Part shown: piece after piece, positions 1-30,715 of the stretch
Position numbering within the stretch: the first letter of the stretch is position 1
Layout: every line of letters begins with the position of its first letter
IMG/VR virus record: IMGVR_UViG_3300020123_000220
Span: 1-31,338 of that record
Origin: a virus
DNA length: 31,338 nt
Direction: 5' to 3' (one strand)
Made by a program: the position numbers and the translations under genes
The notes under the pieces: model-generated
What the model saw: only the letters and a program-made list of their open reading frames with translations
The model's database searches: none
What the model was told of the DNA's origin: nothing

Positions 1-818
1 CACGGGATCTCGCCGATGCCGGCTGCCCGGATGACGGTCGCCTGCTCGCGGAGCATCGCGGCCTGGATCTGGGCCTCGAGCTCGTCGCGCTGGAGCTCGG
101 CGATCTTCTGCTCAGCGCGGACATCCCGGAGGGCGAGCATCCGCGCGGCCGTCTCCGGATCCGCGTCGATCACAAGCTCGTCGGCAGCGCGCGGGTACAT
201 CGCAGCGAGAGCGCGTCTGGTCGCTTCGGAGCCGTCGACGGGCGGCTCGGTCCGGCTCTGGACGTGGTCCCAGAAGGCGGCCTCGCGTTCGATGATCGAC
301 GCCTCGGCGTCGGCGGACCGCTGGATCCGGTAGAGCAGGACAGCATCGGCGCCGGGCTTCAGGAGCGCGACCTCGCCCTCGGGCTCGTCGAGGACCGCCA
401 GTTGATGGAGGACCTGCACGAGCGTGTCGTCGGGAACCTCATCGGTTCCGGGCTCGCCGTAGCCGGTGGCGCGCGCCGAGAACTTGAGCTCGATCGGCTT
501 CCGGCCGGCCCGGCGGTCGATGCTCGCCAGCATGAACGGGTGCTCGGCGTGCTGGCGGAGGTTGTTGGCCCGTCGGATCCTCACGCCGGTCGCCTCGGTG
601 TACATCCGGGCGATGAGCGGCTCGAGCTCCGTGCCGATTCGCATCGAGACGTTCTCGGGCTGCGGCGGGACGAGGCCGAGCTTCTCCGCCCAGAGGCCCA
701 TCGGGCTCTGCCACTCCGACACGCCGATCGCGGCAGCCGCCTGGCTGGCCCCGATGCCGTTCTCGCGGGCAGCCAGCCACTCGGGTGTCTTCTGGCGGAC
801 CGGCAGGACGACCGTCAT
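1..818 (-). CDS. YqaJ-type viral recombinase / lambda-exonuclease-family nuclease (3' end cut by window edge)
   Basis: Translating the minus strand from ATG 818 gives an open frame of 272 residues that runs off the left edge. Residues 11-50 (PEWLAAREN then GIGASQAAAAIG) match the start of YqaJ-type exonucleases. Acidic and basic residues of a PD-(D/E)XK core follow: E66 in RIGTELEP, D101 in LASIDRR, E110 and K112 in IELKFSAR, and a Gln-rich helix near Q135. The family degrades one strand of duplex DNA to prepare 3' tails for a single-strand annealing partner, and that partner is not in this window. The start overlaps the stop of the upstream HNH gene by ATGA. The C-terminal part (about residues 200-272) is charged and probably helical. 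The family call is based on motifs only but they fit well. Confidence 0.85.
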   Translation of the reverse strand, partial: MTVVLPVRQKTPEWLAARENGIGASQAAAAIGVSEWQSPMGLWAEKLGLVPPQPENVSMRIGTELEPLIARMYTEATGVRIRRANNLRQHAEHPFMLASIDRRAGRKPIELKFSARATGYGEPGTDEVPDDTLVQVLHQLAVLDEPEGEVALLKPGADAVLLYRIQRSADAEASIIEREAAFWDHVQSRTEPPVDGSEATRRALAAMYPRAADELVIDADPETAARMLALRDVRAEQKIAELQRDELEAQIQAAMLREQATVIRAAGIGEIP

Positions 819-1354
819 GCGACGTGCCGCCAGGAGAGACCGCGAACGATGTGATTGACGTTCGTATGGCCGACGCCGAACTGGCGCGCGACGGCGCTCT
901 GGCTGGCCCCGGCGCTCACTCGGCGGCGAATCTCGCGGACCTGATCGGCGGTGAGCTTCGCGGTATTCACGCGCTCGCCGCGGGCCCAGCTCTCCGGATG
1001 CGCGGCCTTCGCCGCGAGCATCAGCCGCGGCAGGGTGCCGTCAAAGATGGTCGGGCTGAGCCGGCCCTTCGCTCGTGCGTCGGCCACGTTGTCGAGCTGG
1101 CTGCCCAGGAACAGGTGCGATGGGCGGACACAGGGCGGGTTATCGCAGCGATGGCAGACGAACATCCCCTCCGGGATCGGTCCGACGGCGAGCTCGTAGG
1201 CGACGCGATGGGCGCGATACCGGTGGCCAGCGACGTCGAAGTAGCCGTAGCCGGCCTCCTGTCGGCCGGCGGTCCACTCCCAGCAGTCGCCGGACGTGTC
1301 GACGCGGGACATGAACCGCTCGAGCAGGGTCGCCTGGGCCTTCCGTGCCGTCAT
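815..1354 (-). CDS. HNH endonuclease with C-terminal helix-turn-helix
   Basis: A 179-residue protein with a zinc-containing HNH nuclease core at residues 24-95 (CWEW near 24-27, AHRVAYEL at 49-55, CHRCDNPPCVRPSHLFLG at 67-84, DN at 88-89). The tail from about 132 (LTADQVREIRR to HIVRGLSW) looks like a resolvase-type HTH. Such free-standing HNH proteins are usually homing-type mobile nucleases of phages. The start ATG overlaps the stop of the preceding small gene (ATGA) and its own stop overlaps the start of the YqaJ gene, so it sits neatly inside the early operon. It is a paralogue of the HNH genes at 4670-5212 and 27585-28025. Target site unknown. Confidence 0.85.
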   Translation of the reverse strand: MTARKAQATLLERFMSRVDTSGDCWEWTAGRQEAGYGYFDVAGHRYRAHRVAYELAVGPIPEGMFVCHRCDNPPCVRPSHLFLGSQLDNVADARAKGRLSPTIFDGTLPRLMLAAKAAHPESWARGERVNTAKLTADQVREIRRRVSAGASQSAVARQFGVGHTNVNHIVRGLSWRHVA

Positions 1355-1587
1355 CCGTCCGTCGCCTGGGCCGTCTCGGCCTTCTCGGTCAGCGACTCCG
1401 CGACGAGGCGGAGATCGCGCTCGACGTCGACGAGCGCGGCCTTCTCGATCTCGTCGAGGACCGGCGCATGCCGGCGGGCGAGGTAGCCGACGCTGTTCGC
1501 GACCTCCGCGACGCGGATCGCCGCGACGTGCAGCGCGACCGCGTCGGATGGCGCGGACATCGTCTGAGAGCCGGTGATCGTCGCCAC
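1351..1587 (-). CDS. Small hypothetical protein, alpha-helical
   Basis: A 78-residue frame starting at GTG 1587, with a GAGGAGG purine tract about 12 bases upstream. An alternative ATG start lies at 1560. The sequence is Ala/Val/Glu-rich and probably forms two helices (VAEVANSVGYLARRHA and DEIEKAALVDVERDLRLVAE). No Cys, no transmembrane segment and no recognised family. It sits between the zinc-finger protein gene and the HNH gene, with its stop overlapping the HNH start (ATGA). The context suggests an early phage protein of unknown role. Confidence 0.6.
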   Translation of the reverse strand: MATITGSQTMSAPSDAVALHVAAIRVAEVANSVGYLARRHAPVLDEIEKAALVDVERDLRLVAESLTEKAETAQATDG

Positions 1588-1655
1588 GGTGGCTGGCTTC
1601 CTCCTCGAATCGCGATGGGCGCCGCCGGTCGACCTCCCGCGCCGACCGGCGGCCG

Positions 1656-2210
1656 CTAGATGGCTGGGACCAGGGGGAGCCCCAGCTGCAGGTCGTTCCC
1701 CGGCGCGGGCGCGGCCTCGAGGTACCGACTCGTGATCGTGGGCTGCTGAGAGGCAGCCGCCGGGGTGGGCAGCGAGACGCCTCGGGAGCTCGAATCGGGC
1801 GCCTCGCGCAGCGCCGGGCTCTGCTCGACGTCACCCCCAGTGGATGGCGGAACAAAGTCGGACGCTGCGCGAGGGGCCGGAGTCAGGCCGTCGCGGGCGT
1901 AGAACGGATTGCCCTCGTGTCGCGAGCTCGGGCACCACTGCCGGGTGCCGGGCTTCATGAAGTACAGGTGGCCGTGGCTCGCGTCCTGCGGGCACGGATC
2001 CCCGTCGCCGAAGTCCCGCTCGCGCCAGATCGCCCGAGAGGGCGTACTCGTGACAGGGGTGGGCATGGGCGCGTCCGCGTGCCTCGCCGCGCCAGGAGCC
2101 GTGCCCCGGTGGGCGCTCTGGCGGCAGCGGTCGGAGCAATAGAGCGGCCGCGGGCCCCTGGTCGGCGGCTCGAACGCCTTGCCGCACTGGCGGCACGCGA
2201 TCGTCGTCAT
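1656..2210 (-). CDS. Zinc-ribbon protein, early region
   Basis: A 184-residue protein. The N-terminus has a CxxC...CxxxC zinc ribbon: C6 and C9 (CRQCGKAF), then C25 and C29 (LYCSDRCRQS). A second Cys/His-bearing region follows at about 66-107 (DPCPQDASHGHLYF and QWCPSSRHEGN). The C-terminal third is Pro/Ser/Ala-rich and looks disordered. Its ATG overlaps the stop of the 26-aa microprotein upstream (ATGA). Zinc ribbons of this kind are frequent in phage early proteins of unknown role, and a nucleic-acid or protein contact is possible but not shown. A gap of about 70 bases with a purine-rich tract follows before the next gene. Confidence 0.65.
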   Translation of the reverse strand: MTTIACRQCGKAFEPPTRGPRPLYCSDRCRQSAHRGTAPGAARHADAPMPTPVTSTPSRAIWRERDFGDGDPCPQDASHGHLYFMKPGTRQWCPSSRHEGNPFYARDGLTPAPRAASDFVPPSTGGDVEQSPALREAPDSSSRGVSLPTPAAASQQPTITSRYLEAAPAPGNDLQLGLPLVPAI

Positions 2211-2844: not shown

Positions 2845-2869
2845 TTGCATACTCGCGGCGTGAATGCAA
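2845..2869. promoter_or_regulatory. Inverted repeat in divergent immunity region, candidate operator
   Basis: TTGCAT at 2845-2850 and ATGCAA at 2864-2869 are perfect inverted 6-mers with 13 bases between them. The dyad lies 12 bases upstream of the minus-strand HTH start and about 120 bases upstream of the plus-strand repressor-like start, in a locally more AT-rich stretch. This is where a lysogeny repressor would bind. No convincing -35/-10 pair was found on either strand. Confidence 0.4.
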
Positions 2870-2988
2870 TAGGGACAGCGAGTGGATTTTCCACAATCTC
2901 GCCGCGCGATGGCGGGCGACCCGCGCCTCTGCCCGTTCAGCTGGCGCTCGGGCTCCGTAGCCTCGTCCTGGTGGATGACGACGCAGAG

Positions 2989-3345
2989 ATGCGGCGCCGC
3001 TTCGCTTTCGCGCTCCGCGCGGCGATGGCGGCCAAAGGCTGGAAGGCGCCCGATCTAGCCCGCGAGATCCATCGCGATCCGAGCACGGTGAGCCGCTGGG
3101 TCGATGAGAAGGGCCTGCCGAACATCCTTGTCACGAAGGACCTGGCAGCGGCCCTCGGTGTCAGGCCCGAGTTGCTCTTCGACCCGCCCGCGGTGCCGGA
3201 CTATCCGTTGTCGGAGTACCTCGTGCGCGGTGAGGTCGCTGCGGGGCTCGAGGAGGGTATCGAGCGGGATCGTCAACCCCTAGCCGGCGCATGTCGGCCA
3301 GGGCTTCCGCGGTCGCCAGGGCGACGCGCTCGCGCAGCCGGTTGA
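2989..3345 (+). CDS. XRE-type HTH protein, probable lysogeny repressor
   Basis: One of only two plus-strand genes. From ATG 2989 it gives 118 residues. GTG 2971 would add six residues, and neither start has a good ribosome site. Residues 8-45 form an XRE-like HTH (LRAAMAAKGWKAPDLAREI, then DPSTVSRWV) followed by a helix typical of the fold (LAAALGVRPELLF). The middle (YPLSEYLVRGEVAAGLEEG) looks coding, while the last 25 residues have degraded codon use and may be untidy read-through. It faces the minus-strand HTH gene across an operator-like dyad, the classic immunity-region geometry. There is no peptidase domain, so any induction must be by another route. Repressor role is inferred. Confidence 0.65.
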   Translation: MRRRFAFALRAAMAAKGWKAPDLAREIHRDPSTVSRWVDEKGLPNILVTKDLAAALGVRPELLFDPPAVPDYPLSEYLVRGEVAAGLEEGIERDRQPLAGACRPGLPRSPGRRARAAG

Positions 3346-3467: not shown

Positions 3468-3505
3468 ATCGGCGCCACGCGTGACAGCTAGCTGTCAGCG
3501 CCGAT
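3468..3505. promoter_or_regulatory. Nested palindrome, candidate operator or regulatory hairpin
   Basis: A perfect 16-bp palindrome TGACAGCTAGCTGTCA at 3482-3497 is enclosed by a second inverted repeat, ATCGGCGC at 3468-3475 and GCGCCGAT at 3498-3505, with six extra bases on the left side. A further dyad, GCCGATGATCGGC (3461-3473), overlaps the left arm. It lies between two divergent genes, 86 bases upstream of the minus-strand start at 3382 and 58 bases upstream of the plus-strand epimerase-like gene. It is a strong candidate for a protein-binding site controlling the epimerase-like gene. Confidence 0.5.
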
Positions 3506-3562: not shown

Positions 3563-4390
3563 ATGCGCCCGGCCCTGATCCGCGCCCTGTATCTCGTCCT
3601 GGGTCTTGTCATCGGCGTCGCCGGCACCGGCGCGGTCCTCGCATACGGCGCACCGGACCGGCCGTCGACGATCTGCTCGACGTCGACGACGCCCCTGGCG
3701 TTCCGTGAGCCACCACCGCATCTCGCGCCGTTCAGCGACTGGCTACCGCTGCCGCCCGCCCTCGAGCTGCCCTACGTCGACGGCATGCCCGTGTGGACCG
3801 ACGGCAGCTTCCATCCGGGGGAGGCGGTGGCTGACGGGATCCGCGCGTTGAACGCGGGTGATCGGACCGAGGCCGAGCGCCTCGTCGACGTGCTCATGGC
3901 GCACGCCGCTGGCGCGACGTTCCCATATCGGTTCGACTTCGGCGCGCCACCATGGACCCAGAAGGCACCCTGGGTCTCCGCCTACACCCAGGGCCTCGCG
4001 ACGGTGCTCTTCACGCGACTCGGCCGGCCCGAGGCCGCGGCGATCGCCGCGACGCTCGTCCCGAACGCCGCAGGCTGGTACGAGGAGTATCCAGGGGCGC
4101 CTGTCGTGGTGAACGGCGACATCTTCGCGGCGCTCGGGCTGTACGAGTACGGCCACGCGACCGGGGACCAGGCGAGCCTCAGGAAGTCGCTCGCGGCGAT
4201 CGCGCTCGTTCGAGCGCACATCGGCGACTTCTTGACGACGCGGGGCATCTGGTACGACCTCGGCCACACCCAGCGGATCAGCCCGCCGTACTACCAGACG
4301 CTCACCGACGAGTTCTCATGGCTGGCAGGGATCACCGGCGAGTCGTGCTTCAACGACGTCGCGGTGGCCGTCGTCTACGGTCACGGGTAG
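3563..4390 (+). CDS. Membrane-anchored glucuronyl C5-epimerase-like protein (moron)
   Basis: A 275-residue protein on the plus strand. Residues 5-29 are one hydrophobic segment (signal anchor), so the rest should lie outside the membrane. Residues 135-262 match the pattern of the D-glucuronyl C5-epimerase C-terminal domain: WVSAYTQGLATVLFTRLG (137-154), WYEEYPG (172-178), VVNGDIFAALGLYEYGHATG (182-201), IWYDLG (229-234) and YYQTLTDEFSWLAG (243-256). The family converts glucuronic to iduronic acid in polymers or shares that alpha/alpha toroid fold. Activity on a bacterial or phage glycan is inference. It is transcribed alone, opposite to the phage operons, and ends two bases from the convergent gene. 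This is the arrangement of a lysogenic-conversion gene. The active-site residues of the true epimerases were not verified. Confidence 0.65.
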   Translation: MRPALIRALYLVLGLVIGVAGTGAVLAYGAPDRPSTICSTSTTPLAFREPPPHLAPFSDWLPLPPALELPYVDGMPVWTDGSFHPGEAVADGIRALNAGDRTEAERLVDVLMAHAAGATFPYRFDFGAPPWTQKAPWVSAYTQGLATVLFTRLGRPEAAAIAATLVPNAAGWYEEYPGAPVVVNGDIFAALGLYEYGHATGDQASLRKSLAAIALVRAHIGDFLTTRGIWYDLGHTQRISPPYYQTLTDEFSWLAGITGESCFNDVAVAVVYGHG

Positions 4391-4392
4391 GG

Positions 4393-4773
4393 TCAGGGCG
4401 GGCGCGCTCTCGCCAGCTCGATGAGCCGCCGCGGCGCCTCGACACCGACGAAGGCCATCACGGTCATCTCGTGGTCGTCGGTCGCACCTGGACCGGTGCA
4501 CATCGGCTCGTATTCGTCGTCGTACCGGAACAGCCGACCGCAGACCGGACAGCTGAACACGTTGACGCCTTTCTCGCGAAGGTCGACCTCGGCGATCGGG
4601 ACCCGAGCCGGGGCGAGGAGGCTCGCGGCGGTGACGGCCTCCTCGTCCGGTCGAATGAACCTCGGGCGGTTACGCAGCAGTCTTGCGCGAGGCTCGCCGG
4701 CGACGGGCGTCTTCCCGAGCACAGGCTCGGCAACGCTTCCGGCCGCCCGTTTTGCCGGTGTTGGCTTCGTCAT
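4393..4773 (-). CDS. Zinc-ribbon-like protein, start uncertain
   Basis: The convincing part is the last 90 residues: IRPDEEAVTAASLLAPARV, then FSCPVCGRLFRYDD with a CxxC, followed by MCTGPGATDDHEM, which resembles a one-zinc ribbon (two Cys, then Cys and His). The only in-frame ATG upstream is 4773, which would overlap the HNH gene by about 100 bases in another frame and has no ribosome site. It ends two bases from the convergent epimerase-like gene. The HNH gene may have been inserted over the original 5' end. Function unknown. Confidence 0.5.
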   Translation of the reverse strand: MTKPTPAKRAAGSVAEPVLGKTPVAGEPRARLLRNRPRFIRPDEEAVTAASLLAPARVPIAEVDLREKGVNVFSCPVCGRLFRYDDEYEPMCTGPGATDDHEMTVMAFVGVEAPRRLIELARARPP

Positions 4774-5212
4774 ACGGATGACCGTTGATGCATACGCTGA
4801 CGATCGGCGGTCCTTTGCGTCGGCCCTTCGCCTCCATGTCGGACTTGTTGTCGGCGTCGGTGCCGAGCCAGAGATGGTCGGGTCGTACACAGCGCCGATT
4901 GTCGCAACGGTGGAGCACCCACAGTCCATCGGGGATCGGCCCGTGGTGCAGCTCCCAGGACACGCGATGGGCCTTCAGGGGCACGCCCCGGTGCGGCGCG
5001 GACAGCTGGCCGTAGCCGGTGTCCTTCAGCGACCCGATCCACACCCAACATGGCCCGAGCTCGGCGCGCACCACCGGCCCGTTCCGGTCGACCTTCGGCC
5101 AGAACCGGGAGTCGATCGAAGCGGACCGGCGATTGCGCCGAAGAACGAGGGCGGCGAGACCCTCCTGGCCCACGGCGGTAGCATGCATCCGCCGTAGCGT
5201 AGCACATAGCAT
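4670..5212 (-). CDS. HNH endonuclease with C-terminal zinc ribbon
   Basis: About 180 residues from ATG 5212 (alternative ATG 5188); neither start has a clear ribosome site. The HNH core reads CWVWIGS, then KAHRVSWELHHGPIPDG, then LHRCDNRRCVRPDHLWLG and DADN, the same family as the HNH genes at 815-1354 and 27585-28025. After the core comes a zinc ribbon (CINGHPYDEANTG, then RCRACAREDARRRR), which replaces the HTH seen in the two paralogues. Such ribbons probably help DNA recognition. It lies at the end of the tail operon, starting two bases after the previous gene's stop, and is a probable homing-type insertion. Confidence 0.8.
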   Translation of the reverse strand: MLCATLRRMHATAVGQEGLAALVLRRNRRSASIDSRFWPKVDRNGPVVRAELGPCWVWIGSLKDTGYGQLSAPHRGVPLKAHRVSWELHHGPIPDGLWVLHRCDNRRCVRPDHLWLGTDADNKSDMEAKGRRKGPPIVSVCINGHPYDEANTGKTGGRKRCRACAREDARRRRASRKTAA

Positions 5213-5214
5213 GG

Positions 5215-5547
5215 CTACCCATAAGTGTAACCGGAGGAGACGCCCACCACGTCGGTATTGTTTGCAAACCCTTCGTAGTAATCGTTGATTTGGGCGACCT
5301 GCCACCAGTTGAAGATCGCCGGCACGTTCACCGTGAGGACGTACGCGTCGAGGATCTTCTGCGCCGCGGTGTCGGCCGCCGTGGCGCCCAGCTCGAGCGT
5401 GACCGCCCGGGCCGAGACCGAATCGAACACGGTCGTCCGGTGGATGTTCACGAGCGCCGTGTCGCGCTTTCGCCACGTCGCGATGTTCGCCGCGCCGTTC
5501 CCCATGACCGTCGGGGCGATGAGCTGGGCCGGGGTGTAAACCGCCAT
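5215..5547 (-). CDS. Small hypothetical tail-region protein
   Basis: A 110-residue protein from ATG 5547 with a strong ribosome site (AAAAGGAG, 8 bases upstream). It is neutral, rich in Ala, Thr and Val, and ends in a glycine/tyrosine tail (VSSGYTYG). No signal peptide, Cys or transmembrane segment. No family recognised. It is separated from the glycosidase-like gene by about 60 bases and has its own ribosome site instead of an overlap, so it may be expressed at a different level. A minor virion or receptor-binding accessory protein would fit the position but is not shown. Confidence 0.65.
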   Translation of the reverse strand: MAVYTPAQLIAPTVMGNGAANIATWRKRDTALVNIHRTTVFDSVSARAVTLELGATAADTAAQKILDAYVLTVNVPAIFNWWQVAQINDYYEGFANNTDVVGVSSGYTYG

Positions 5548-5610: not shown

Positions 5611-6600
5611 TCATAGGCAGGGCTGGTCGATTCGGATCAGGCCGACCGTTGCGACATGCGCGGCGGAGAGCCCGGAGTAGTAGAAGAGCCACTTGCCGCC
5701 GACCGCGATCGGCACCCCGGCCTTGTCCTTGAGGATCTGGCCGGAGTAGGCCTCCTTCTCCTCCCAGCCCGATCCGGTCCGGCTGATGATCGGTGTCGTG
5801 TCGGAGAAGTCCCATGACGCGAGCCCGCCGGTCGAGCTCGCGAACTCGATGTCCCGCGGATCCGGCTGAGGGTCGCCTCGGGCGTAGAGCATCCCCCACT
5901 TCGTCCGGAAGCTGAACACTGTCGGCGTCTCGAGGATCCGGTTGTCGTTCTCGGCGAGGAGGAGCGAGGTGAGACCGCTCGGGTTATTCCACGTCGTGCC
6001 GGTCGCGTGGAGCAGCTGGAATCGGCTGTTGAAGCCGCCGTAGCCGAAGAAGTGGTAGACGCCGCCGCAGACGTGGACGGAGCTAATCCCGAAGTCCTGC
6101 TCGGTGGACGCGCCGAGGTCCGCCAACGCGTTCGCCTTCGTGAAAATCGGGTTGGCCGGGTCGCGGGTGAGGACACCGGGGGTCGATCCCGGAGCGGTCG
6201 CGTGGCCCCATTGCCAGTTGGACGCGTCCGCGTTGCGGCCCTTGTAGTAGACGTGGATCACGTCCGCGACGTCGTCGTAGACGGCGGTCGGCTCGAGGAC
6301 GAAGGCACTCTCCCAGGTCGCTGCGACCGGCGAGAGGACGACGACGCCAGCGTCGAACGTCGTCCCGCCGTCCGTCGAGATGTGCATCCAGATCCGACTG
6401 CCGCCCTTGCAGTACGCGACGAGCCGGCCGTCCGGGAGAAGGACCGGCGCCGGGACGTATTGCTCGACGGTCTCGCCGGCGGGGATCGTGATGACCGGGT
6501 TCGTTGGCTCCCGGGTGAGCGTCCAGGCGGTCGCCGCAGTGCAGGGTCGAGCTCGCTCCCGGGTCGCGACGAGGAGCGGGCGCGCGAGGACGGGACTCAT
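5611..6600 (-). CDS. Glycosidase-like five-bladed propeller protein (GH43/GH32-like fold), tail associated
   Basis: A 329-residue protein whose ATG overlaps the stop of the tail-fibre gene (ATGA). It shows repeated blade-like motifs typical of GH43/GH32/GH130-type beta-propellers: PAPVLLPDGRLVAYCKGG, WMHISTDGGTTFD, ESAFVLEPTAVYDD, VIHVYYKGR, ILETPTVFSF, WGMLYARGD and WLFYYSGL. No signal peptide. Such proteins bind or cleave glycans, and behind a tail-fibre gene the natural reading is a tail-borne depolymerase or glycan-binding protein. The catalytic acids cannot be fixed by eye, so a purely binding propeller is possible. Confidence 0.65.
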   Translation of the reverse strand: MSPVLARPLLVATRERARPCTAATAWTLTREPTNPVITIPAGETVEQYVPAPVLLPDGRLVAYCKGGSRIWMHISTDGGTTFDAGVVVLSPVAATWESAFVLEPTAVYDDVADVIHVYYKGRNADASNWQWGHATAPGSTPGVLTRDPANPIFTKANALADLGASTEQDFGISSVHVCGGVYHFFGYGGFNSRFQLLHATGTTWNNPSGLTSLLLAENDNRILETPTVFSFRTKWGMLYARGDPQPDPRDIEFASSTGGLASWDFSDTTPIISRTGSGWEEKEAYSGQILKDKAGVPIAVGGKWLFYYSGLSAAHVATVGLIRIDQPCL

Positions 6601-9600
6601 GCGATCTTGATCGCCACGATCGTTGAGGCGTTGTTGCCGGCCCCGTTGTCGACCGCCGCGGCGAGGATCGAACCAGCCGAACTATTGCCGGCGACGCTGA
6701 TCTTCCACGTCGGGCTGCCGGATGAGATCACGACGGTCCCGACGAGCGTGACGGACGCGTACTTGCGGCCAGCCGCGCCGCCGTAGGTCAGGAACTCGGC
6801 CGAGGCGATGACCGTCGTGCCGTCCCAGAGCTTCGCCGTCATCTCGGTCGAGTTGTCCGCGCCGTTGACAGTGACAGTGGCGATGATGATGTAGGTCCCA
6901 TTCGCCATCGCCGCGATCGACGGTCCGTCGTAGTACTGATTCGCGTTCGTCATCGCGACGTTTGAGCCAAGCTGAGCCGACTGGACCGAGATGCTTGAGC
7001 TCCCTGCCGGTCCGGTCAGGCCCCGCATCCCGTCGAGCCCATCTATCCCGGGTGCGCCGGCCGCACCATCGGCGCCATTCGTGCCGTTCGCGCCTGCTAC
7101 ACCAGTCGGCCCGCGGAGACCGTCGAGGCCGTCGATCCCCGGGACACCGTCAGCGCCCGTGCCCCCTGTGAGCCCACGTGGCCCCTGCAATCCGTCGAGC
7201 CCGTCGATCCCCTGGACCCCTTGTGGGCCGGCACCGCCCCCGGGTCCGGTCGAGCCGTCGATGCCGTCGATGCCATTCGTCCCGTTGGTCCCATTCGTGC
7301 CATCGCGACCGGGGAGCCCGTCGATGCCCGGAGGTCCCTCGGGTCCGATCTGCGCGTACCAGTTGGTCCCACCGTCGACGGACCGGAACGGGATCTCGGT
7401 GTAGTCCCCGGCGCCGGTCTTGACGAACGCCTCAGCCGAGGCCTTGTTGAGGACCGAGGCCGGGAGGGTGATCGAATGCCCGCCGGTCGCGTCCTGCGTC
7501 AGCCCGATCGTGAGGATGCACTCGGACGAGGCGATCGCTCCGGTGAACGTGAGGGTGCAGTTCGCATCGAGCGTCCCCTCATGGGCCGGCTGCGCGCCCG
7601 AGGCGTAGTCGAACGTCTCGGTCGCGCCCATGACGCCGTGAGAGATGACGGTCGGCGGGATGCCGACGCCGGCGGGCCCGCGGAGACCGTCGAGGCCATC
7701 GAGCCCGTTGCTGCCGATGATCCCGTCGCGACCCGGCGGCCCCTGAAGCCCGTCCAGGCCGGGAGGACCGGCGCCATCGCCGGGGACGAACGTCCCGGTC
7801 GCGGAGTCGAAAACGAGTACCTGGCCGTTCGTGATCCCGTCCGCGTTGACGTCGGTCAGACCGAGTAGCCGGCCGACCCCCGTCAGGATCGCTCGGATGA
7901 TCCCGGTGCCGTCCTGGAGGATCGTCCAGCCGGTCGAGCGGATCGTCCGGCCAGTCGCGGAAGAGACGACGGCGCCCGCCGAGTCGAGGCCCTGGAGCGT
8001 GACGTCCGCGTCGATGCTGCCGCCACCGCCCGAACTTGCCGCCGCTCCCGCGCTCGCCCCGGCCGAGGCGGCGGCCGTCGTCGGCAGGAAGGCCGAGCCG
8101 AGCTCGAGGACGGGCGTCGGGAACGCGCCGGTCGCGTCCTCTTCGAGCGAGATCGCGTAGATCGTGAAATCTTCCTCGTCGATGTCGGTCTCGCCGGTCC
8201 CGGTATGGACCCGGACGACATCGCCGACGTTGTAGTGGGTGAAGGGGTGGTAGAGCCCCGCGAGCTCATCGTTCCCGGCGACGACGCGGAGTGCGATCTT
8301 CTCGGCCACGATCCGCTCGGCCTCGAGGGTCGCGACAGCGGTCCCCTCGAGCGCGGAGGCATCGGTCAGGCTGGTCGAGACGAAGCCCTCGCGGGTGTAG
8401 CCGAGGTCATGGTCGGCCGCCGTCGCGAAGATCCCGCCGTTGCCGCCGGCGAGCATGTCCGAGTGCTTGTCGGTCTCGTTCGCTCGACGAAGGAGCTCCG
8501 GCGCGATGTTGACACCCTTCTCGAACCGGACCTTGCCGGCGGCGAACGTGGCGCTCGAGCGATCGGTCCCGTACTGGTCCGCGTTCCGGCCGATGATCTC
8601 GACGTCGGGCGTGACCTGGACCGTGAGCCCGTAGGGGATGAGCCGCAGGACCGTGGCCAGGCCGCCGGCGCCGACCTTCGCATCGAACTCGAGCGTGCCG
8701 GCGTTCGTCTCCCATGGCGCGCCCGCCGAGTCGTTCGCGAAATCGAACGCGTAGGTCATGTCGGGCAGCGGCTGCTGCGGCCGCCCAGGGGCCTGCCACT
8801 CGGCCATGAGCCGGGCGAGGATCGCGCCCGGGGTGCCCTCGTCGAGCCGCCAGTCGCCGTTGACGGGATCGTGCGGCGTCGCCGCGACGATCTGGTACTT
8901 GCTGACGAGCCCGGTCACCGAGCTCGTCGGGTAGAAGAACTGGTTGCCGCTCTCGGTCGTCCAGCCGCCCCCGAAGCTGACGAGGGTGTGGGTCGAGATG
9001 ACCGAGACGATGACCGTCGGCGCCGACTGGGCGACGATAAGCGCCCGCATCGTGCCCTGGAACCAGAGCGCGAGCTGGCTGCCGTTGACGCTGATCGAGT
9101 TGAGCTTCGTCTGGGTAACGCCGCCGTAGACGATGGTGTAGGCCGCGGTCAACGAGCCGTCGGCCTTCGATCGCTTCTGGACGCAGGCCGTCCCGTCGTA
9201 GCGAGCGCACCACAGAACGGTTGCGTCGGCCCGGATGTCGGTGAGCTTGACGGCCGAGCCGAGGTCGTATGTGGCGAGGATCGCCCAGTCGGAGATCCGG
9301 ACCTTGTGGATCTTCGTGTGCGCCGTGGAGCCCGATAGCCAGGGTGCCTCGCAGACCCACAGGATCGTCGCGTCCGAGGGGTCATCGCTGATGCCGGCGA
9401 CGTAGCCGGCGCAGATCACGGGCGAGGTCCGGATCCGGACCTTGTCGCTCTGGCGGACTACGTAGATCCGGCGAGTCGTCTCGCTGATCCCGTAGAAATA
9501 CGTCGGATCGCCACCGACAACGACCGCCCCCGATGGCGTCGGGACGACGTTCGTCTCCCAGATCTCGGTCCAGGTGTCGGTCAGATCGAGGCCCGTCGTG

Positions 9601-10646
9601 AAGGCCTGGTCCCACATGACGGCCCGCTCGAGGTAGGCCATGATCCCGCGGCCGCCGAAGGTGAGCTCCTCGCCGGCCTTCTCGGCGTGATCGGCGAGGG
9701 TGAAGTCGCCGGTCTCGAGCAGGAACGCGAAGTCGTAGTCATCGCGCCACGGGAAGCGGCACTTGACGACGTTCCCGCGCTCGAGCGCGGCCGCCACGGC
9801 GAGGGCGGAGTTCCGGTTGATCTTGAAGATCCCCGTCCCCGGGCCGTTGAGCTCGACCCGGATCGCCCGGGCCGTGGCCCCGTCGACCGGCGCATCGCTG
9901 GCCTGGATCGTCTCGATGATCGTCCCATTCGGGTCGGCCGCGGCATAGACGTCCCATCCGACGCCCGCGGGCGGTGGGGGCGCCACGTCGATCTCGTATT
10001 CGCCGATCAGGACCGTCATCGAGCTGATGTGCGTCGCGGTCATCGCTACCGTGACGTCGGTCTCGCTCCCGTCGGCGATCCGGTAGGCGACCGTGGCCTC
10101 GCCGATGAACGTCGCCTGGCCGGGGATGTCCTCGAGGACGGTCCAGCCCGCCGGCCAATCGAACGTCGCGCCCGGCGACGGGCCCGACGTCGTCGCGCTG
10201 GCATAGGCGACGAGAACGTTCCCGGGCGTGGCGGCGCCGCCGAGCGCGGCCACGACGCTCGGGTTCGTGGTTCCCGCCCCCTCCCAGGTGTGGTGATTGC
10301 CGCCGTGGTGGGGAACGGCGGTCCCGGTCGTCCGGAACGCAAGCTGAGCGGCAGACCACCGGCAGGCGGCGCTCGCGCCGAAGGTGTCGTGATAGGGCGA
10401 CGCATCGACGGGATGGAACCGGTCACAAAGCGAATACTGGATACCCTCGGGGAGATAGCTGAGGGTGATGACCTCGTTCTCGCGGAGCGTCCAGCCGGCG
10501 GGGAGAACGAGATCGTTCGCGGGTCGGTTCTGGACGAGGCCAATGAGCAATACGTTCGGACCGACGACGTCGAGCTCCGGCAGCGTCCAGGACGAAAGGA
10601 GGACGTCGGTGCCGTTCGCATCGAATGCGAGCAGGGGTCCGGGCAC
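6597..10646 (-). CDS. Tail-tip hub / collagen-like fibre fusion, 1349 aa
   Basis: The largest gene. Residues 1-230 form a beta-rich domain (GWTVLEDIPG, VLIGEYEID). Residues about 235-880 resemble the tail-tip hub proteins of the actinophage Gp37-like type (FKINRNSALA, FGGRGIMAYLERA, AERIVAEKIALRVV). A Gly/Ala/Ser hinge follows near 890. Two collagen-like Gly-X-Y tracts lie at about 955-995 and 1098-1217, separated by a beta-sandwich-like spacer. Residues 1218-1349 form a C-terminal head that may bind the receptor. It therefore appears to combine baseplate hub and host-binding fibre in one chain. It follows the distal tail protein gene and overlaps the glycosidase-like gene (ATGA). Confidence 0.8.
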   Translation of the reverse strand: MPGPLLAFDANGTDVLLSSWTLPELDVVGPNVLLIGLVQNRPANDLVLPAGWTLRENEVITLSYLPEGIQYSLCDRFHPVDASPYHDTFGASAACRWSAAQLAFRTTGTAVPHHGGNHHTWEGAGTTNPSVVAALGGAATPGNVLVAYASATTSGPSPGATFDWPAGWTVLEDIPGQATFIGEATVAYRIADGSETDVTVAMTATHISSMTVLIGEYEIDVAPPPPAGVGWDVYAAADPNGTIIETIQASDAPVDGATARAIRVELNGPGTGIFKINRNSALAVAAALERGNVVKCRFPWRDDYDFAFLLETGDFTLADHAEKAGEELTFGGRGIMAYLERAVMWDQAFTTGLDLTDTWTEIWETNVVPTPSGAVVVGGDPTYFYGISETTRRIYVVRQSDKVRIRTSPVICAGYVAGISDDPSDATILWVCEAPWLSGSTAHTKIHKVRISDWAILATYDLGSAVKLTDIRADATVLWCARYDGTACVQKRSKADGSLTAAYTIVYGGVTQTKLNSISVNGSQLALWFQGTMRALIVAQSAPTVIVSVISTHTLVSFGGGWTTESGNQFFYPTSSVTGLVSKYQIVAATPHDPVNGDWRLDEGTPGAILARLMAEWQAPGRPQQPLPDMTYAFDFANDSAGAPWETNAGTLEFDAKVGAGGLATVLRLIPYGLTVQVTPDVEIIGRNADQYGTDRSSATFAAGKVRFEKGVNIAPELLRRANETDKHSDMLAGGNGGIFATAADHDLGYTREGFVSTSLTDASALEGTAVATLEAERIVAEKIALRVVAGNDELAGLYHPFTHYNVGDVVRVHTGTGETDIDEEDFTIYAISLEEDATGAFPTPVLELGSAFLPTTAAASAGASAGAAASSGGGGSIDADVTLQGLDSAGAVVSSATGRTIRSTGWTILQDGTGIIRAILTGVGRLLGLTDVNADGITNGQVLVFDSATGTFVPGDGAGPPGLDGLQGPPGRDGIIGSNGLDGLDGLRGPAGVGIPPTVISHGVMGATETFDYASGAQPAHEGTLDANCTLTFTGAIASSECILTIGLTQDATGGHSITLPASVLNKASAEAFVKTGAGDYTEIPFRSVDGGTNWYAQIGPEGPPGIDGLPGRDGTNGTNGTNGIDGIDGSTGPGGGAGPQGVQGIDGLDGLQGPRGLTGGTGADGVPGIDGLDGLRGPTGVAGANGTNGADGAAGAPGIDGLDGMRGLTGPAGSSSISVQSAQLGSNVAMTNANQYYDGPSIAAMANGTYIIIATVTVNGADNSTEMTAKLWDGTTVIASAEFLTYGGAAGRKYASVTLVGTVVISSGSPTWKISVAGNSSAGSILAAAVDNGAGNNASTIVAIKIA
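7000..7353 (-). repeat. Collagen-like Gly-X-Y repeat, long tract
   Basis: About 120 residues of Gly-X-Y inside the tail-fibre gene. The unit GIDGLDGLRGP and close variants (GIDGLDGLQGP, GIDGLDGMRGL) recur at regular spacing and are also visible in DNA as repeated CCGTCGAG-type blocks on the plus strand. Asn-Gly-Thr runs (GTNGTNGTNG) occur between them. Phage collagen-like tracts form trimeric fibre stems and change length easily by recombination between repeats. Confidence 0.85.
7665..7785 (-). repeat. Collagen-like Gly-X-Y repeat, short tract
   Basis: About 40 residues of Gly-X-Y (GPPGLDGLQGPPGRDG, then GLDGLDGLRGPAG) in the same fibre gene, upstream in protein order of the long tract. It shares the GLDGLxGP unit with the long tract, so the two probably arose by duplication around the non-collagen spacer. 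Confidence 0.8.
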
Positions 10647-24852: not shown

Positions 24853-25203
24853 TTACATGGCCATCCCACCCCCGAGGCCGCGCCGCGCGTTGCAGTCCAC
24901 GCAGAGCACCCGAAGGTTCGATCGATCGAGCGGTGCACCGCCCTTGCTGAGCGGCACGATGTGGTCGCCCGACAGGCGCCATGCTGGGTGAGCAGGACGT
25001 CGCCAGCCGGGGCACGTCCAGCCGTGCCGGGCGACATGCTCGGCGACCAGGGAGGTGCTGAGACGCCGCCAAGCCCGGGTCCCGTAGAGCTTCGTCCGAG
25101 GCCGCCGCTGGAAGGCGGCGAAGGATCCGGCGTGCGCGGGGCAATACGACCCGGGCCCTTCGAACGGGAGGCCGCACCGCAGACAGGACCGAACCCGGGA
25201 CAT
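24853..25203 (-). CDS. HNH endonuclease next to terminase
   Basis: A 116-residue protein with an HNH core: LSGDHIVPLSKGG (78-90; D80, H81), N96 in DRSNLRVLC, and zinc-binding CVDCNARRG (101-109). A second Cys set lies at the start (SCLRCGLPF, YCPAHAG). In the HK97 group an HNH protein of this kind is needed with terminase for cos cutting. Its place directly upstream of the small subunit supports the same role, so it is probably not a homing nuclease like the other HNH genes. Confidence 0.88.
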   Translation of the reverse strand: MSRVRSCLRCGLPFEGPGSYCPAHAGSFAAFQRRPRTKLYGTRAWRRLSTSLVAEHVARHGWTCPGWRRPAHPAWRLSGDHIVPLSKGGAPLDRSNLRVLCVDCNARRGLGGGMAM

Positions 25204-26179: not shown

Positions 26180-27331
26180 TCAGTGCCAGCCGCGGAGGTA
26201 ACGCGAGAGGGCGTAGATGCCAGCCGCGACCGCGAGCAGGACGAGGATCAGCAGCCCGACCGGAGCTCCGGGGGCTGGCGGTGGCGTCGGGCCAGGGGAG
26301 GGACTCGCGGACGGCGTCGGGCTCACCGACTCCGGCGGGCTGGCCGACGGGACCGAGCTGGCTGTCGCTGTCGGAGCCTCGGTCGCCGGCACGGCGGTCG
26401 GGACCGGCGTGACGACCTCGGTCGGGATCGGGGTCGACTCAAGCGTTGGCTCCACGGTCGGTGAAGGTGTGGCCGTGGGCTCTGGGGTGGGGAATGCCGT
26501 CGGCGTGGGAACCGGCGTCGGGACGGGCGTGGGCGGAGGGGGCGGCGCGTCGTTCACGTCGACCGTCGCGTAGAAGGCGTAGGGCTGCGCGACCTGGGCG
26601 TACGGCATCCAGGCGTCGCCGCCGAGGCCCCACGCGGTGCCCCAGGAGTTCCGAAGGCGAAAGCTTCCGCCGGCGACCGAGTCGTCCCAGCCGTAGGCGA
26701 GGATCGAGTGCCCGCCGGTCACGTAGTCGGGTGCGGGCAGGACGCCGCCGATCGGGTGCGACCAGCTGTGGTACCAGGGCGTGATGATCGCGACCGGCCC
26801 GTAGGCGAGGATCGCGGCCTTGACCGCGGCGACGGTCTTCGGAACGATCCAGTACTTGGCGATCCGGTGGTCGAAGGCGTTGCCGTGGGTGACCTCGGGA
26901 TAGCCAGCGTTGCGCATCTGCGACATCGCCGCGGATTCGTAGGCGCCGTTCGGCCCGCCCCCGATGGAGACGAAGAACGTCGGCTTGTCGAAGTTGAAGA
27001 AGACGTGTCCCTGGTCGATCCAGTCCTGCCACGCCTTGAGGGCGGCGGACGAGTAGGCCACGCACTGCGGCGTGAGTCCCTGGTTGAGGACCGGCGGCAT
27101 GTTCGGGGCGCGATATGCCGGCGCCAGCGCCGCGGGCGGCTCAGGCACTTCCTCGCCGGGCGCGGCCGCGGCCGGAGGCTCGAGGATCGCGCCGAGGCCG
27201 TACTCCGCGTCGGGCGCGACGGGGACCGTCGGCGTCGGCGTGCCATGCGAGATCGAGACGCTGGCCGCGATCGCGAGGATCAGCGCCGCGGCGACCTCGA
27301 TGCGGCGAAGCGAGCGTCGGTCAGTCATCAC
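26180..27331 (-). CDS. Papain-like (C1) cysteine peptidase, membrane anchored
   Basis: A 383-residue protein. Residues 11-28 are hydrophobic (signal or anchor). The catalytic set of papain fold is complete: Q84 and C90 in LNQGLTPQCVAYSSA, H208 in GGHSILAYGW, N228 in RNSWGTAWG. A Pro/Thr/Ser-rich linker (about 262-355) follows, then a C-terminal membrane segment (GLLILVLLAVAAGIYAL) and a short basic tail. The peptidase domain would sit outside the membrane, held by an extended stalk. Papain-like enzymes in phages are rare; it may act in lysis or on the host envelope, or be a host-acquired gene. It is flanked by lysis-type and HNH genes. Confidence 0.88.
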   Translation of the reverse strand: MMTDRRSLRRIEVAAALILAIAASVSISHGTPTPTVPVAPDAEYGLGAILEPPAAAAPGEEVPEPPAALAPAYRAPNMPPVLNQGLTPQCVAYSSAALKAWQDWIDQGHVFFNFDKPTFFVSIGGGPNGAYESAAMSQMRNAGYPEVTHGNAFDHRIAKYWIVPKTVAAVKAAILAYGPVAIITPWYHSWSHPIGGVLPAPDYVTGGHSILAYGWDDSVAGGSFRLRNSWGTAWGLGGDAWMPYAQVAQPYAFYATVDVNDAPPPPPTPVPTPVPTPTAFPTPEPTATPSPTVEPTLESTPIPTEVVTPVPTAVPATEAPTATASSVPSASPPESVSPTPSASPSPGPTPPPAPGAPVGLLILVLLAVAAGIYALSRYLRGWH

Positions 27332-27584: not shown

Positions 27585-28025
27585 TCAATGGAGCCCAGCC
27601 CAGTTCTGGCCGGCGACGACGGCGCTGACCGTGGTTCGGGCGACCCCGTACCGCTCCGCGAGCGCCCGGCGCTGCATGCCGGTCGCGGCCAGGGCCCGAA
27701 TCTCCTCGACCTGGGCCACAGTCAGCCTGGCGCGCCCATTTCGGTGACCCACGTTCTTCGGGTCGTGGCTGTCACGCCCCTTCAGGAACCGGTCGCGATT
27801 GTTGTCAGCCCGGGTGCCGAGGAACAGGTGCTCAGGGTTTACACACGGCGGGTTGTCGCACTTGTGGAGCACGCACAGCCCATTCGGAATGGGGCCGAAC
27901 GCCTCCTCCCAGGCCACGCGATGCGCCCTGACCCGAACGGGCCAGCCATCGGCTCCGCGGCCGATCGTGACCTCGCCGTAGCCTCTCTTGTGGATGCGGC
28001 CCTGCCATACGATGCAGCCGTCCAT
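27585..28025 (-). CDS. HNH endonuclease with C-terminal helix-turn-helix
   Basis: A 146-residue protein coupled to the XhlA-like gene by TGATG. The HNH core shows CIVWQGR, then VRAHRVAWEEAFGPIPNG, then CVLHKCDNPPCVNPEHLFLG and ADN. The C-terminus (LTVAQVEEIRALAATGMQRR, LAERYGVARTTVSAVVAG) is a resolvase-type HTH, as in the 815-1354 gene, from which it is clearly descended. It is inserted in the lysis-type block, and homing mobility is the usual explanation. Confidence 0.85.
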   Translation of the reverse strand: MDGCIVWQGRIHKRGYGEVTIGRGADGWPVRVRAHRVAWEEAFGPIPNGLCVLHKCDNPPCVNPEHLFLGTRADNNRDRFLKGRDSHDPKNVGHRNGRARLTVAQVEEIRALAATGMQRRALAERYGVARTTVSAVVAGQNWAGLH

Positions 28026-28825: not shown

Positions 28826-28838
28826 GTCCTGTCGTGTC
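28826..28838. repeat. attP arm repeat, integrase side
   Basis: GTCCTGTCGTGTC, an exact 13-bp copy of the repeat at 28692-28704. It overlaps the last two bases of the integrase stop codon region. Together with the left copy it brackets the tRNA-His core. Confidence 0.5.
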
Positions 28839-29922
28839 AGCCGCGCTGGACGAACCGGTCGAGGGCGTTGACGGCCTTCCGCTGAGCGCCCGGTTGGACG
28901 TGGGCGTAGATGTTCGCCGTGATGCTCGGTGAGGCGTGGCCCAGCTGGTCCGAGATCGTCTGCATGGCGACGCCGGCGCCGAGCAGCAGCGTCGCGTGGC
29001 CGTGCCGGAGGTCGTGGACCCGCATCGGCGGCAGCTTCGCCGTGGCGAGCAGCTCGCGGAACCGATGGAGGGCGACGTCGACGCGGAGCCGCTCCCCCTT
29101 GCGCTCGCCGACGAACACCGGCGCCTTCGGATCGATCGTCGAGCTCGCCGCACGATGGGTCTTGAGCGAGGCGATGACCGACGGCGGGATCGGGATCGTC
29201 CGGACCGACCGGGCGGTCTTGCCGGCCCGCACGGCGACGGTGCCCCGCTCGAGGTCGACATCGCGCCAGTCGAGAGCGAGGGCCTCGCCGACCCGCATCC
29301 CGGAGCCGAGCAGGAGCTCGTAGAGCGCCGCCTGGCGATCGCCGGCGACGGCTGCGAGAACCTCACGGGCCCGGGTCGGCGTCATCGCCGTGATCTCGTG
29401 CCGGGCCACCTTCGGCCGCTTGGCCTGGCTGACCACGTTCCGGGTGAGTAGCCCGTCGTCGACGGCGGTTCGGAGCGCCATCGAGAGCGTCGTCAGGATC
29501 CGCCGGACCGTCGCCCCCGACAGGCCCGCCTTCGTGCGGGCCCGGACCAGGCGATCGACGTCGAGCGGCCGGAGGTCCTCGAGCGGCATCCCGCCCAGCA
29601 CCGGCCCGATGTGGTGGTCGACGTGGCCGGCGTAACTCCGGTAGGTCGCCCGCCGGACGGTGGCCTCGACGCGCTCGAGCCAAGCCGTGAGGTAGGTGTC
29701 GAGCGTCTGTGCCGGGTCACCCAGATCTCGATCGACGCCGGCCCGGGCGAGGAGGGCCGGCAGCGCGAGCTTCGCGGCCGCTTCGTTGCGAGCGATCCGG
29801 GTCAGGTACTTCCGCCTGCCGTCCGGCCCGCGGTAACCAACCTGGGCGGCCCAGCGACCATCGGGCCTCGGGAACACCGCGCCGGATCCGCGCTGGCGCC
29901 GCGGGCGCTTCCTCCTCGCCAC
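28837..29922 (-). CDS. int: Tyrosine site-specific integrase
   Basis: A 361-residue protein starting at GTG 29922; the long upstream open frame to 30633 is a shadow of other genes. An N-terminal arm-binding domain (about 15-60, YRGPDGRRKYLTR) and core-binding domain (about 70-170) precede the catalytic domain. Catalytic residues are complete: R210 (GSGMRVGEAL), K235 (AGKTARSVRTIPIP), H303 and R306 (HDLRHGHATLL), H329 (QLGHASP) and Y339 (NIYAHV). It recombines attP with the host tRNA-His site. The stop is about 70 bases from the attP core, as usual. Confidence 0.95.
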   Translation of the reverse strand: MARRKRPRRQRGSGAVFPRPDGRWAAQVGYRGPDGRRKYLTRIARNEAAAKLALPALLARAGVDRDLGDPAQTLDTYLTAWLERVEATVRRATYRSYAGHVDHHIGPVLGGMPLEDLRPLDVDRLVRARTKAGLSGATVRRILTTLSMALRTAVDDGLLTRNVVSQAKRPKVARHEITAMTPTRAREVLAAVAGDRQAALYELLLGSGMRVGEALALDWRDVDLERGTVAVRAGKTARSVRTIPIPPSVIASLKTHRAASSTIDPKAPVFVGERKGERLRVDVALHRFRELLATAKLPPMRVHDLRHGHATLLLGAGVAMQTISDQLGHASPSITANIYAHVQPGAQRKAVNALDRFVQRG

Positions 29923-29932
29923 GTCGGGGAGT

Positions 29933-30112
29933 CTAGGCGACGTGTCGACCCCGGAGCGACGCGACGTAGGTCTCGAGCTCGGTCTCGGCGACCCGAACCC
30001 GACGCCCGACGCGAAGAACGCGGATCCGCCCGGCGTCCACCAGACGCTCGACCGTCCGCCTCGAAACGCGCAGCTTCTCGGCGACCTCGTCGAGGGTGAG
30101 AAGCTCAGCCAC
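29933..30112 (-). CDS. xis: Excisionase-like HTH protein
   Basis: A 59-residue protein starting at GTG 30112 and overlapping the RlpA-like gene by 8 bases. Residues 4-25 form the winged HTH typical of excisionases (LTLDEVAEKLRVSRRTVERL), followed by the wing (GRIRVLRVGRRVRVAETELE). It lies 10 bases upstream of the integrase gene. It would bend attR/attP DNA and steer recombination to excision. Confidence 0.8.
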   Translation of the reverse strand: MAELLTLDEVAEKLRVSRRTVERLVDAGRIRVLRVGRRVRVAETELETYVASLRGRHVA

Positions 30113-30581
30113 CGAGCTGGACCTCGACGCGCAGGAGGCCCCTCGAGAGCGGGCCCAGGGCACGGAACGCCTCGTCGGACAGGTCGACGACCCGCGTGCC
30201 CGAGCAGGCGCACCAGTCGACGAGCTTGACCCGGATGCAGGTTGACCGGCAGACGGTGACGGACCGCCCGCGCCAGCCCGGGCCCAGCGCCTGGCGGAGC
30301 GCCGGCCCGGCCGCGGCGTACAGGCCGTCGGGCCCCGTCGCGTACCAGGTGGCGATCCCCGACAGCCCGTGGCGTGGCGCGCTCGTGGCTGTCGGGGCGG
30401 GAACGTGAGGCGCGACGAGCGCCCGAGGCGCCTCGGCCAGCTCCCGGTCCGGCTCGCTCGTACCCGAAGGTGCGGCCGGGATGACAGGAGCTGGCCGTGA
30501 GGCCGAGAACGCGAGTGTCCGGGCGGTCCAGCCGAGCATGAAGGCGATCACGATCAGGAGGGCGAGGATGAGCCGGCTCAC
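30105..30581 (-). CDS. RlpA-like double-psi beta-barrel protein, exported
   Basis: A 158-residue protein. Residues 1-20 are a hydrophobic signal or anchor. A Pro/Ala linker to about 68 is followed by an RlpA-like barrel: GIATWYATGPDGLYAAAGPA (75-94), LRQALGPGWRGRSVTVC, then IRVKLVDWCACSGTRVVDLS (116-135) with Asp D122 and D133. RlpA proteins are lytic transglycosylases that cut glycan strands free of peptides. Four Cys (C111, C115, C124, C126) may form disulfides. A wall-directed enzyme here could aid lysis or entry. It is joined to a small membrane protein (ATGA). Confidence 0.75.
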   Translation of the reverse strand: MSRLILALLIVIAFMLGWTARTLAFSASRPAPVIPAAPSGTSEPDRELAEAPRALVAPHVPAPTATSAPRHGLSGIATWYATGPDGLYAAAGPALRQALGPGWRGRSVTVCRSTCIRVKLVDWCACSGTRVVDLSDEAFRALGPLSRGLLRVEVQLGG

Positions 30582-30715
30582 CAGCCACCGCCGGGCTCAT
30601 CGAAGGGCTCACGCTCGAGCGTCGGACCGTCACCGCCGAGCAGGCGATCGAGCAGCCAGAGGCCGACGGCGACGCCGGCGAAGAAGGCCGTCGCGAGCTC
30701 CAGCAGGCGGGTCAT
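30578..30715 (-). CDS. Small membrane protein
   Basis: A 45-residue protein starting at ATG 30715, overlapping the nuclease gene stop (ATGA). One hydrophobic segment (LATAFFAGVAVGLWLLDRLL) is followed by an acidic tail (EREPFDEPGGGW). The reading from 30808 adds only a shadow of the neighbour. It sits directly before the RlpA-like gene, overlapping it by ATGA, and may help its export or act as a holin-type pinhole, which is inference. Confidence 0.55.
   Translation of the reverse strand: MTRLLELATAFFAGVAVGLWLLDRLLGGDGPTLEREPFDEPGGGW

Follow-up and report, generated by a model that had tools for sequence, protein, structure and literature searches.

The gene at 3563–4390 of the window, the 31,338-nucleotide stretch analyzed here and the whole of one IMG/VR virus record, encodes a protein (P0001) that almost certainly belongs to the GLCE-type C5-epimerase family and has its fold. 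Because its layout of an anchor and one domain also occurs in actinobacterial chromosomes, P0001 adds a new and divergent member, carried by a phage, to an enzyme family already known, and is no new kind of system. Whether this exported protein with its single epimerase domain modifies a host glycan is, in our judgment, evenly balanced; the virus may in this way remodel the surface sugars of its host. The features of the gene are as follows.

3563–4390, plus strand: C5-epimerase-like gene (P0001), 275 aa, ATG start, assigned by Pfam PF06662 and coding frame
3584–3649, plus strand: N-terminal hydrophobic segment, about residues 8–29, anchor or signal peptide, by Kyte–Doolittle
4070–4363, plus strand: PF06662 match, residues 170–267, by Pfam profile
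4085–4090, plus strand: Glu175-Tyr176, equivalent to human GLCE E499-Y500, by direct alignment to 6hzz and family alignment
4112–4114, plus strand: Asn184, equivalent to GLCE N510, Asn in 50/50 family rows
4253–4255, plus strand: Tyr231, equivalent to GLCE Y560, by direct pairwise alignment (6hzz) and family alignment
4289–4291, plus strand: Tyr243, equivalent to GLCE Y578, Tyr in 48/50 family rows and invariant in a further alignment

The ORF at 3563–4390 is a real, intact gene. A codon model trained on structural genes of the same phage scored its frame at 0.291 per codon, with the other five frames ranging from −0.42 to +0.10, and its GC3 is 0.89. The profile PF06662 (C5-epim_C, the D-glucuronyl C5-epimerase C-terminal family) matched P0001 with an E-value of 2.6e-10 and 40.5 bits, the curated Pfam cut-off being 23.3 bits. 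The preliminary description had read an epimerase pattern into residues 135–262, and this is borne out by the profile match; the stretch also covers a conserved QKAPW-S-TQG block, placed by alignment at residues 133–144. The only plausible matches to PDB sequences in a phmmer search were GLCE of human and zebrafish (E = 0.0025–0.022), and no family for P0001 was found in PHROGs or NCBIfam.

An AlphaFold2 model of P0001, built from a 16-sequence alignment, has four helical hairpins (pLDDT 73.9, pTM 0.76). When compared with human and zebrafish GLCE by VIA-align, the model gave Z scores of 20.4 to 21.0 over 219 to 231 residues, whereas the next fold, GH76, reached 12.6. The best GLCE match was 6i02 (Z = 21.0, rmsd = 3.0, 222 residues aligned), so that the alpha/alpha toroid fold, the lack of which was one of two conditions set beforehand for refuting the reading, is predicted in a GLCE-like form. 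GLCE chains also top the Foldseek ranking for the model, with E-values of only about 1.5e-3, and a BFVD fold search with P0001 gave no significant match.

The key residues of GLCE are E499, Y500, N510, Y560, and Y578 (PMC13308652). In a 50-row family alignment that includes the human sequence, all five positions are kept in P0001 as E175, Y176, N184, Y231, and Y243; the second refuting condition, loss of every active-site residue, therefore does not apply. E499 is present in 41 of the 50 rows and Y500 in 42; as eight to nine rows lack one or the other, their retention in P0001 is informative. Every invariant alignment column is likewise retained. The position of GLCE Arg563 is occupied by Gly, several helical hairpins are shorter than those of relatives in the alignment, and the loop at residues 231–238, which holds Tyr231, was modeled at pLDDT below 50.

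The N terminus of P0001 is strongly hydrophobic, with a Kyte–Doolittle mean of 2.2 (up to 2.22) for residues 8–27 and no value above 1.2 from residue 46 onward. By eye, the stretch LAYG↓APD resembles a possible site for signal peptidase, and anchored and secreted forms of P0001 are therefore both possible. The hydrophobic segment behind the membrane anchor of the preliminary description is thus real, but a cleavable signal fits it equally well.

The surroundings of the gene are those of a phage, and the following features flank it.

3–818, minus strand: RecE/YqaJ-type nuclease, left of the epimerase gene
815–1855, minus strand: HNH gene, left of the epimerase gene
2845–3345, plus strand: possible HTH repressor ORF (PHROG transcriptional repressor, E = 2.9e-8), start uncertain
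3468–3505, no strand: outer inverted repeat ATCGGCGC / GCGCCGAT around the palindrome, 8-bp arms at 3468–3475 and 3498–3505
3482–3497, no strand: perfect 16-bp palindrome TGACAGCTAGCTGTCA, 65 bp upstream of the epimerase start codon
4670–5200, minus strand: HNH endonuclease, right of the epimerase gene
6597–10646, minus strand: tail fibre, right of the epimerase gene

A zinc-ribbon-like ORF also lies to the right, and the tail genes follow beyond the HNH endonuclease. With phage genes on both sides, the epimerase gene is inside the phage. The genome is temperate and actinophage-like: the tyrosine integrase (28837–30633), TerL, portal, major head protein, tape measure, and tail fibre are all encoded on the minus strand. 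The relatives of the portal, mainly phages of Actinomycetota, and the GC content of 70% suggest an actinobacterial, high-GC host. No tRNA gene was found as a possible mark of the attachment site, and megablast of the left 12 kb of the window against phages gave no match.

The epimerase gene is absent from the nearest phage relative (G001), which shows 72% identity to this phage in the portal. A family search over 31 records found matches in six others and in none of the 25 reached via the portal alone (G001 and 24 others), some of which may be fragments, which tempers this absence. Its position between the tail genes and the recombinase/HNH region, its absence from the nearest relative, and its rarity in phages together indicate that the gene behaves like accessory cargo, in keeping with the moron-type status first proposed for it. 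That it is the sole plus-strand gene holds only roughly, as the HTH ORF at 2845–3345, with weak coding support (codon score −0.03), is also on the plus strand.

Other parts of the record drew our attention in their own right. Its 31 kb hold four separate HNH endonuclease genes, all on the minus strand (815–1855, 4670–5200, 24853–25203, and 27585–28025), two of which flank the epimerase region. A papain-family cysteine protease domain (PF00112) is encoded at 26180–27331 on the minus strand, with the terminase region on one side and the integrase region on the other. The gene that immediately follows the tail fibre, P0007 (5611–6600, minus strand, 329 aa), has strongly phage-like codon usage and an Asp-box-like ISTDGGTTF motif. 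The beta-propeller glycosidase suggested by this motif gained no support, as P0007 had no Pfam or credible PDB match; single-sequence structure prediction gave no usable model (pLDDT 31.6).

The dyad noted upstream of the epimerase gene is genuine, consisting of the 16-bp palindrome within its 8-bp arms. It occurs once, with no second copy within three mismatches anywhere in the window, and may be an operator, for which it is a candidate. A sigma-70-like promoter was not found for the epimerase gene; this consensus is often missing in high-GC hosts. A terminator was looked for 3′ of the gene and none was found.

Searching with P0001 matched one of 50,697 phage records, Bradyrhizobium phage ppBeUSDA76-1 (WAX24363.1; 26.9% identity over 68% of the query, E = 8e-8). 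With WAX24363.1 as the query, 15 Pseudomonas aeruginosa phage records also matched. Scans of viral contigs with P0001 alone, P0002, or a two-sequence alignment gave no relatives, nor did the first genome scan, but a three-sequence alignment recovered relatives in both viral contigs and genomes. Of 396 Actinomycetota genomes sampled, 30 carry the family, and in three Streptomyces genomes (L076, L077, and L079) two neighbouring paralogues of a 600-aa epimerase-family protein were seen. Literature searches found no paper on a phage or prophage C5-epimerase. PF06662 is rare in phages, yet it lies beside tail or receptor genes wherever neighbours were checked. As a claim of unusual phage cargo, the preliminary description was right about rarity, but Bradyrhizobium, P. 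aeruginosa, and Streptomyces-type viral carriers exist; its overall interpretation is supported in part. The family, fold, active site, export or anchor segment, accessory status, and rarity stand, the glycosaminoglycan-like substrate and surface role are plausible proposals, and expression from the prophage would be a further assumption.

No relative in the tree alignment exceeds 30% identity to P0001. Its terminal branch is long (2.49) and the tree has no starred set, so that its placement is not fixed and no donor can be named; likewise, a substrate cannot be transferred to P0001 from relatives at this level of identity. The label "phage" needs at least two, and parsimoniously four, changes on the family tree, from which phages seem to have acquired the PF06662 family more than once.

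From its sequence and model, we lean toward P0001 being a working epimerase or an enzyme of closely related uronosyl chemistry. During lysogeny or infection, it would either lodge in the host membrane or be secreted through it. At that site, its alpha/alpha domain would remove the proton at C5 of a uronic-acid residue and then put it back, with catalysis via Tyr243, Glu175, Tyr176, and Tyr231 together with Asn184. The target would be a host envelope or exopolysaccharide chain, in which D-gluco would become L-ido or an analogous pair. The phage would most likely benefit from the modified surface glycan through its effect on phage adsorption, by receptor change or superinfection exclusion. That P0001 carries out such surface-glycan conversion could fall either way. 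More tentatively, and on the doubtful side of even, a membrane-anchored prophage C5-epimerase would rewrite the stereochemistry of a surface polysaccharide that the host has already completed and bring about serotype conversion or superinfection exclusion. If this is true, PF06662 genes beside the receptor-binding modules of several unrelated phage groups would represent a general, undescribed strategy.

Three other explanations bear on this reading. P0001 could keep the family fold and perform a related chemistry, as a uronic-acid lyase or glycoside hydrolase, or act on a non-uronic sugar, which we consider unlikely, if by no means negligible: the alpha/alpha fold is common to GH76, GH8, and sugar 2-epimerases, and PMC13308652 counts a single GLCE-type enzyme identified in bacteria, so that most members could have other specificities, but GLCE is far ahead of every other fold and its catalytic set is complete in P0001. 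The intact frame, the phage-typical codon usage, and the retention of all invariant columns and all five catalytic residues make a non-functional or decaying cargo gene very improbable, in spite of the long terminal branch, the shortened hairpins, and the Gly in place of Arg563; no close homologues were found for a purifying-selection test.

It is also distinctly unlikely, if less so than decay, that P0001 acts on glycans in the virion or at the infection stage, as a part of the tail or delivered together with it, and aids passage through a layer containing uronic acid. The epimerase gene is on the strand opposite the tail module, HNH and zinc-ribbon-like ORFs separate the two, and P0001 has an export segment, which tail proteins normally lack. 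Nevertheless, the tail-side genes reach to near 5215, which leaves about 800 bp to the epimerase gene, the Bradyrhizobium phage gene comes after tail fibre genes, and a signal-less PF06662 protein is encoded in the tail operon of Streptomyces-type viral contigs, a placement that rests on the neighbours of L006. In a PHROG/Pfam scan of that contig, the PF06662 gene (5737–7149) has minor tail proteins on one side and an endolysin on the other. A virion-associated role is thus a live alternative for the family, and it suits the Streptomyces-type relatives better than the exported P0001.

Under the reading of P0001 as a surface-glycan epimerase, this exported protein, with all its catalytic residues in place, is a small, testable enzyme, and polysaccharide chemistry could gain small iduronic-acid-forming enzymes from it. 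Since the family recurs by tail or receptor genes in several groups of phages, C5 epimerisation at the polymer level may be one of the means by which phages change host surfaces, comparable to the known O-antigen acetylases and glucosylases.

Comparing P0001 with its named relatives, the animal GLCE family converts glucuronic acid to iduronic acid in heparan sulfate. Human and zebrafish GLCE (PDB 6hzz, 6i01, 6i02, 4pw2, and 4pxq) have a helical catalytic domain like that of P0001 (Z about 21) and share the E499/Y500/N510/Y560/Y578 equivalents, but not the Gly at Arg563, at 16 to 18% identity. However, their crystal chains have about 515 aa against about 275 aa, and in animal GLCE beta-hairpin and beta-barrel domains precede the helical domain. 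P0001 has neither; only about 55 residues, mostly modeled at low confidence, lie between its hydrophobic segment and helical domain, and it is thus not a full animal-type GLCE. Closer in layout are two actinobacterial chromosomal proteins from a class-level search, L133 (355 aa) and L130 (309 aa), which also have a hydrophobic N terminus and a single epimerase domain, in which the EYP/EEY and NG motifs and both Tyr motifs can be made out. They are 29 to 39% identical to P0001 in the matched stretch, but are encoded on bacterial genome contigs.

Among viral carriers, QBI79947.1 of Pseudomonas phage vB_Pae_CF23a and its counterparts in 14 similar phage records are, like P0001, phage-carried PF06662 proteins with an N terminus that, by eye, appears hydrophobic and signal-peptide-like. 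QBI79947.1 differs in its length (560 aa), its extra C-terminal domains, and EEM for EEY at Y500; it shares 28% identity with the protein of the Bradyrhizobium phage and was missed by the P0001 search. Its gene comes directly behind that of a Gp49-type pectin-lyase-like tailspike and is followed by an antirepressor and a lysozyme, and it is possibly an O-antigen modifier; literature searches for a prophage-borne P. aeruginosa O-antigen epimerase found nothing relevant. In this set of 15 P. aeruginosa phage records, in which the gene of MK511001.1 (L128) lies at 6713–8395, the PF06662 protein is without annotation, and the records opened stem from cystic fibrosis lung. The Bradyrhizobium phage protein (361 aa) has no evident signal as annotated and its gene is on the tail-gene strand, in contrast to the export segment and opposite strand of P0001. 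The Streptomyces-type viral contigs (L005–L010 and L121–L126), one of which carries a portal gene, share with P0001 a PF06662 domain in a viral context; their form, of about 470 aa, has a C-terminal extension, a WIQEYPGA motif, and, in L005–L008, L010, and L121–L126, no evident signal.
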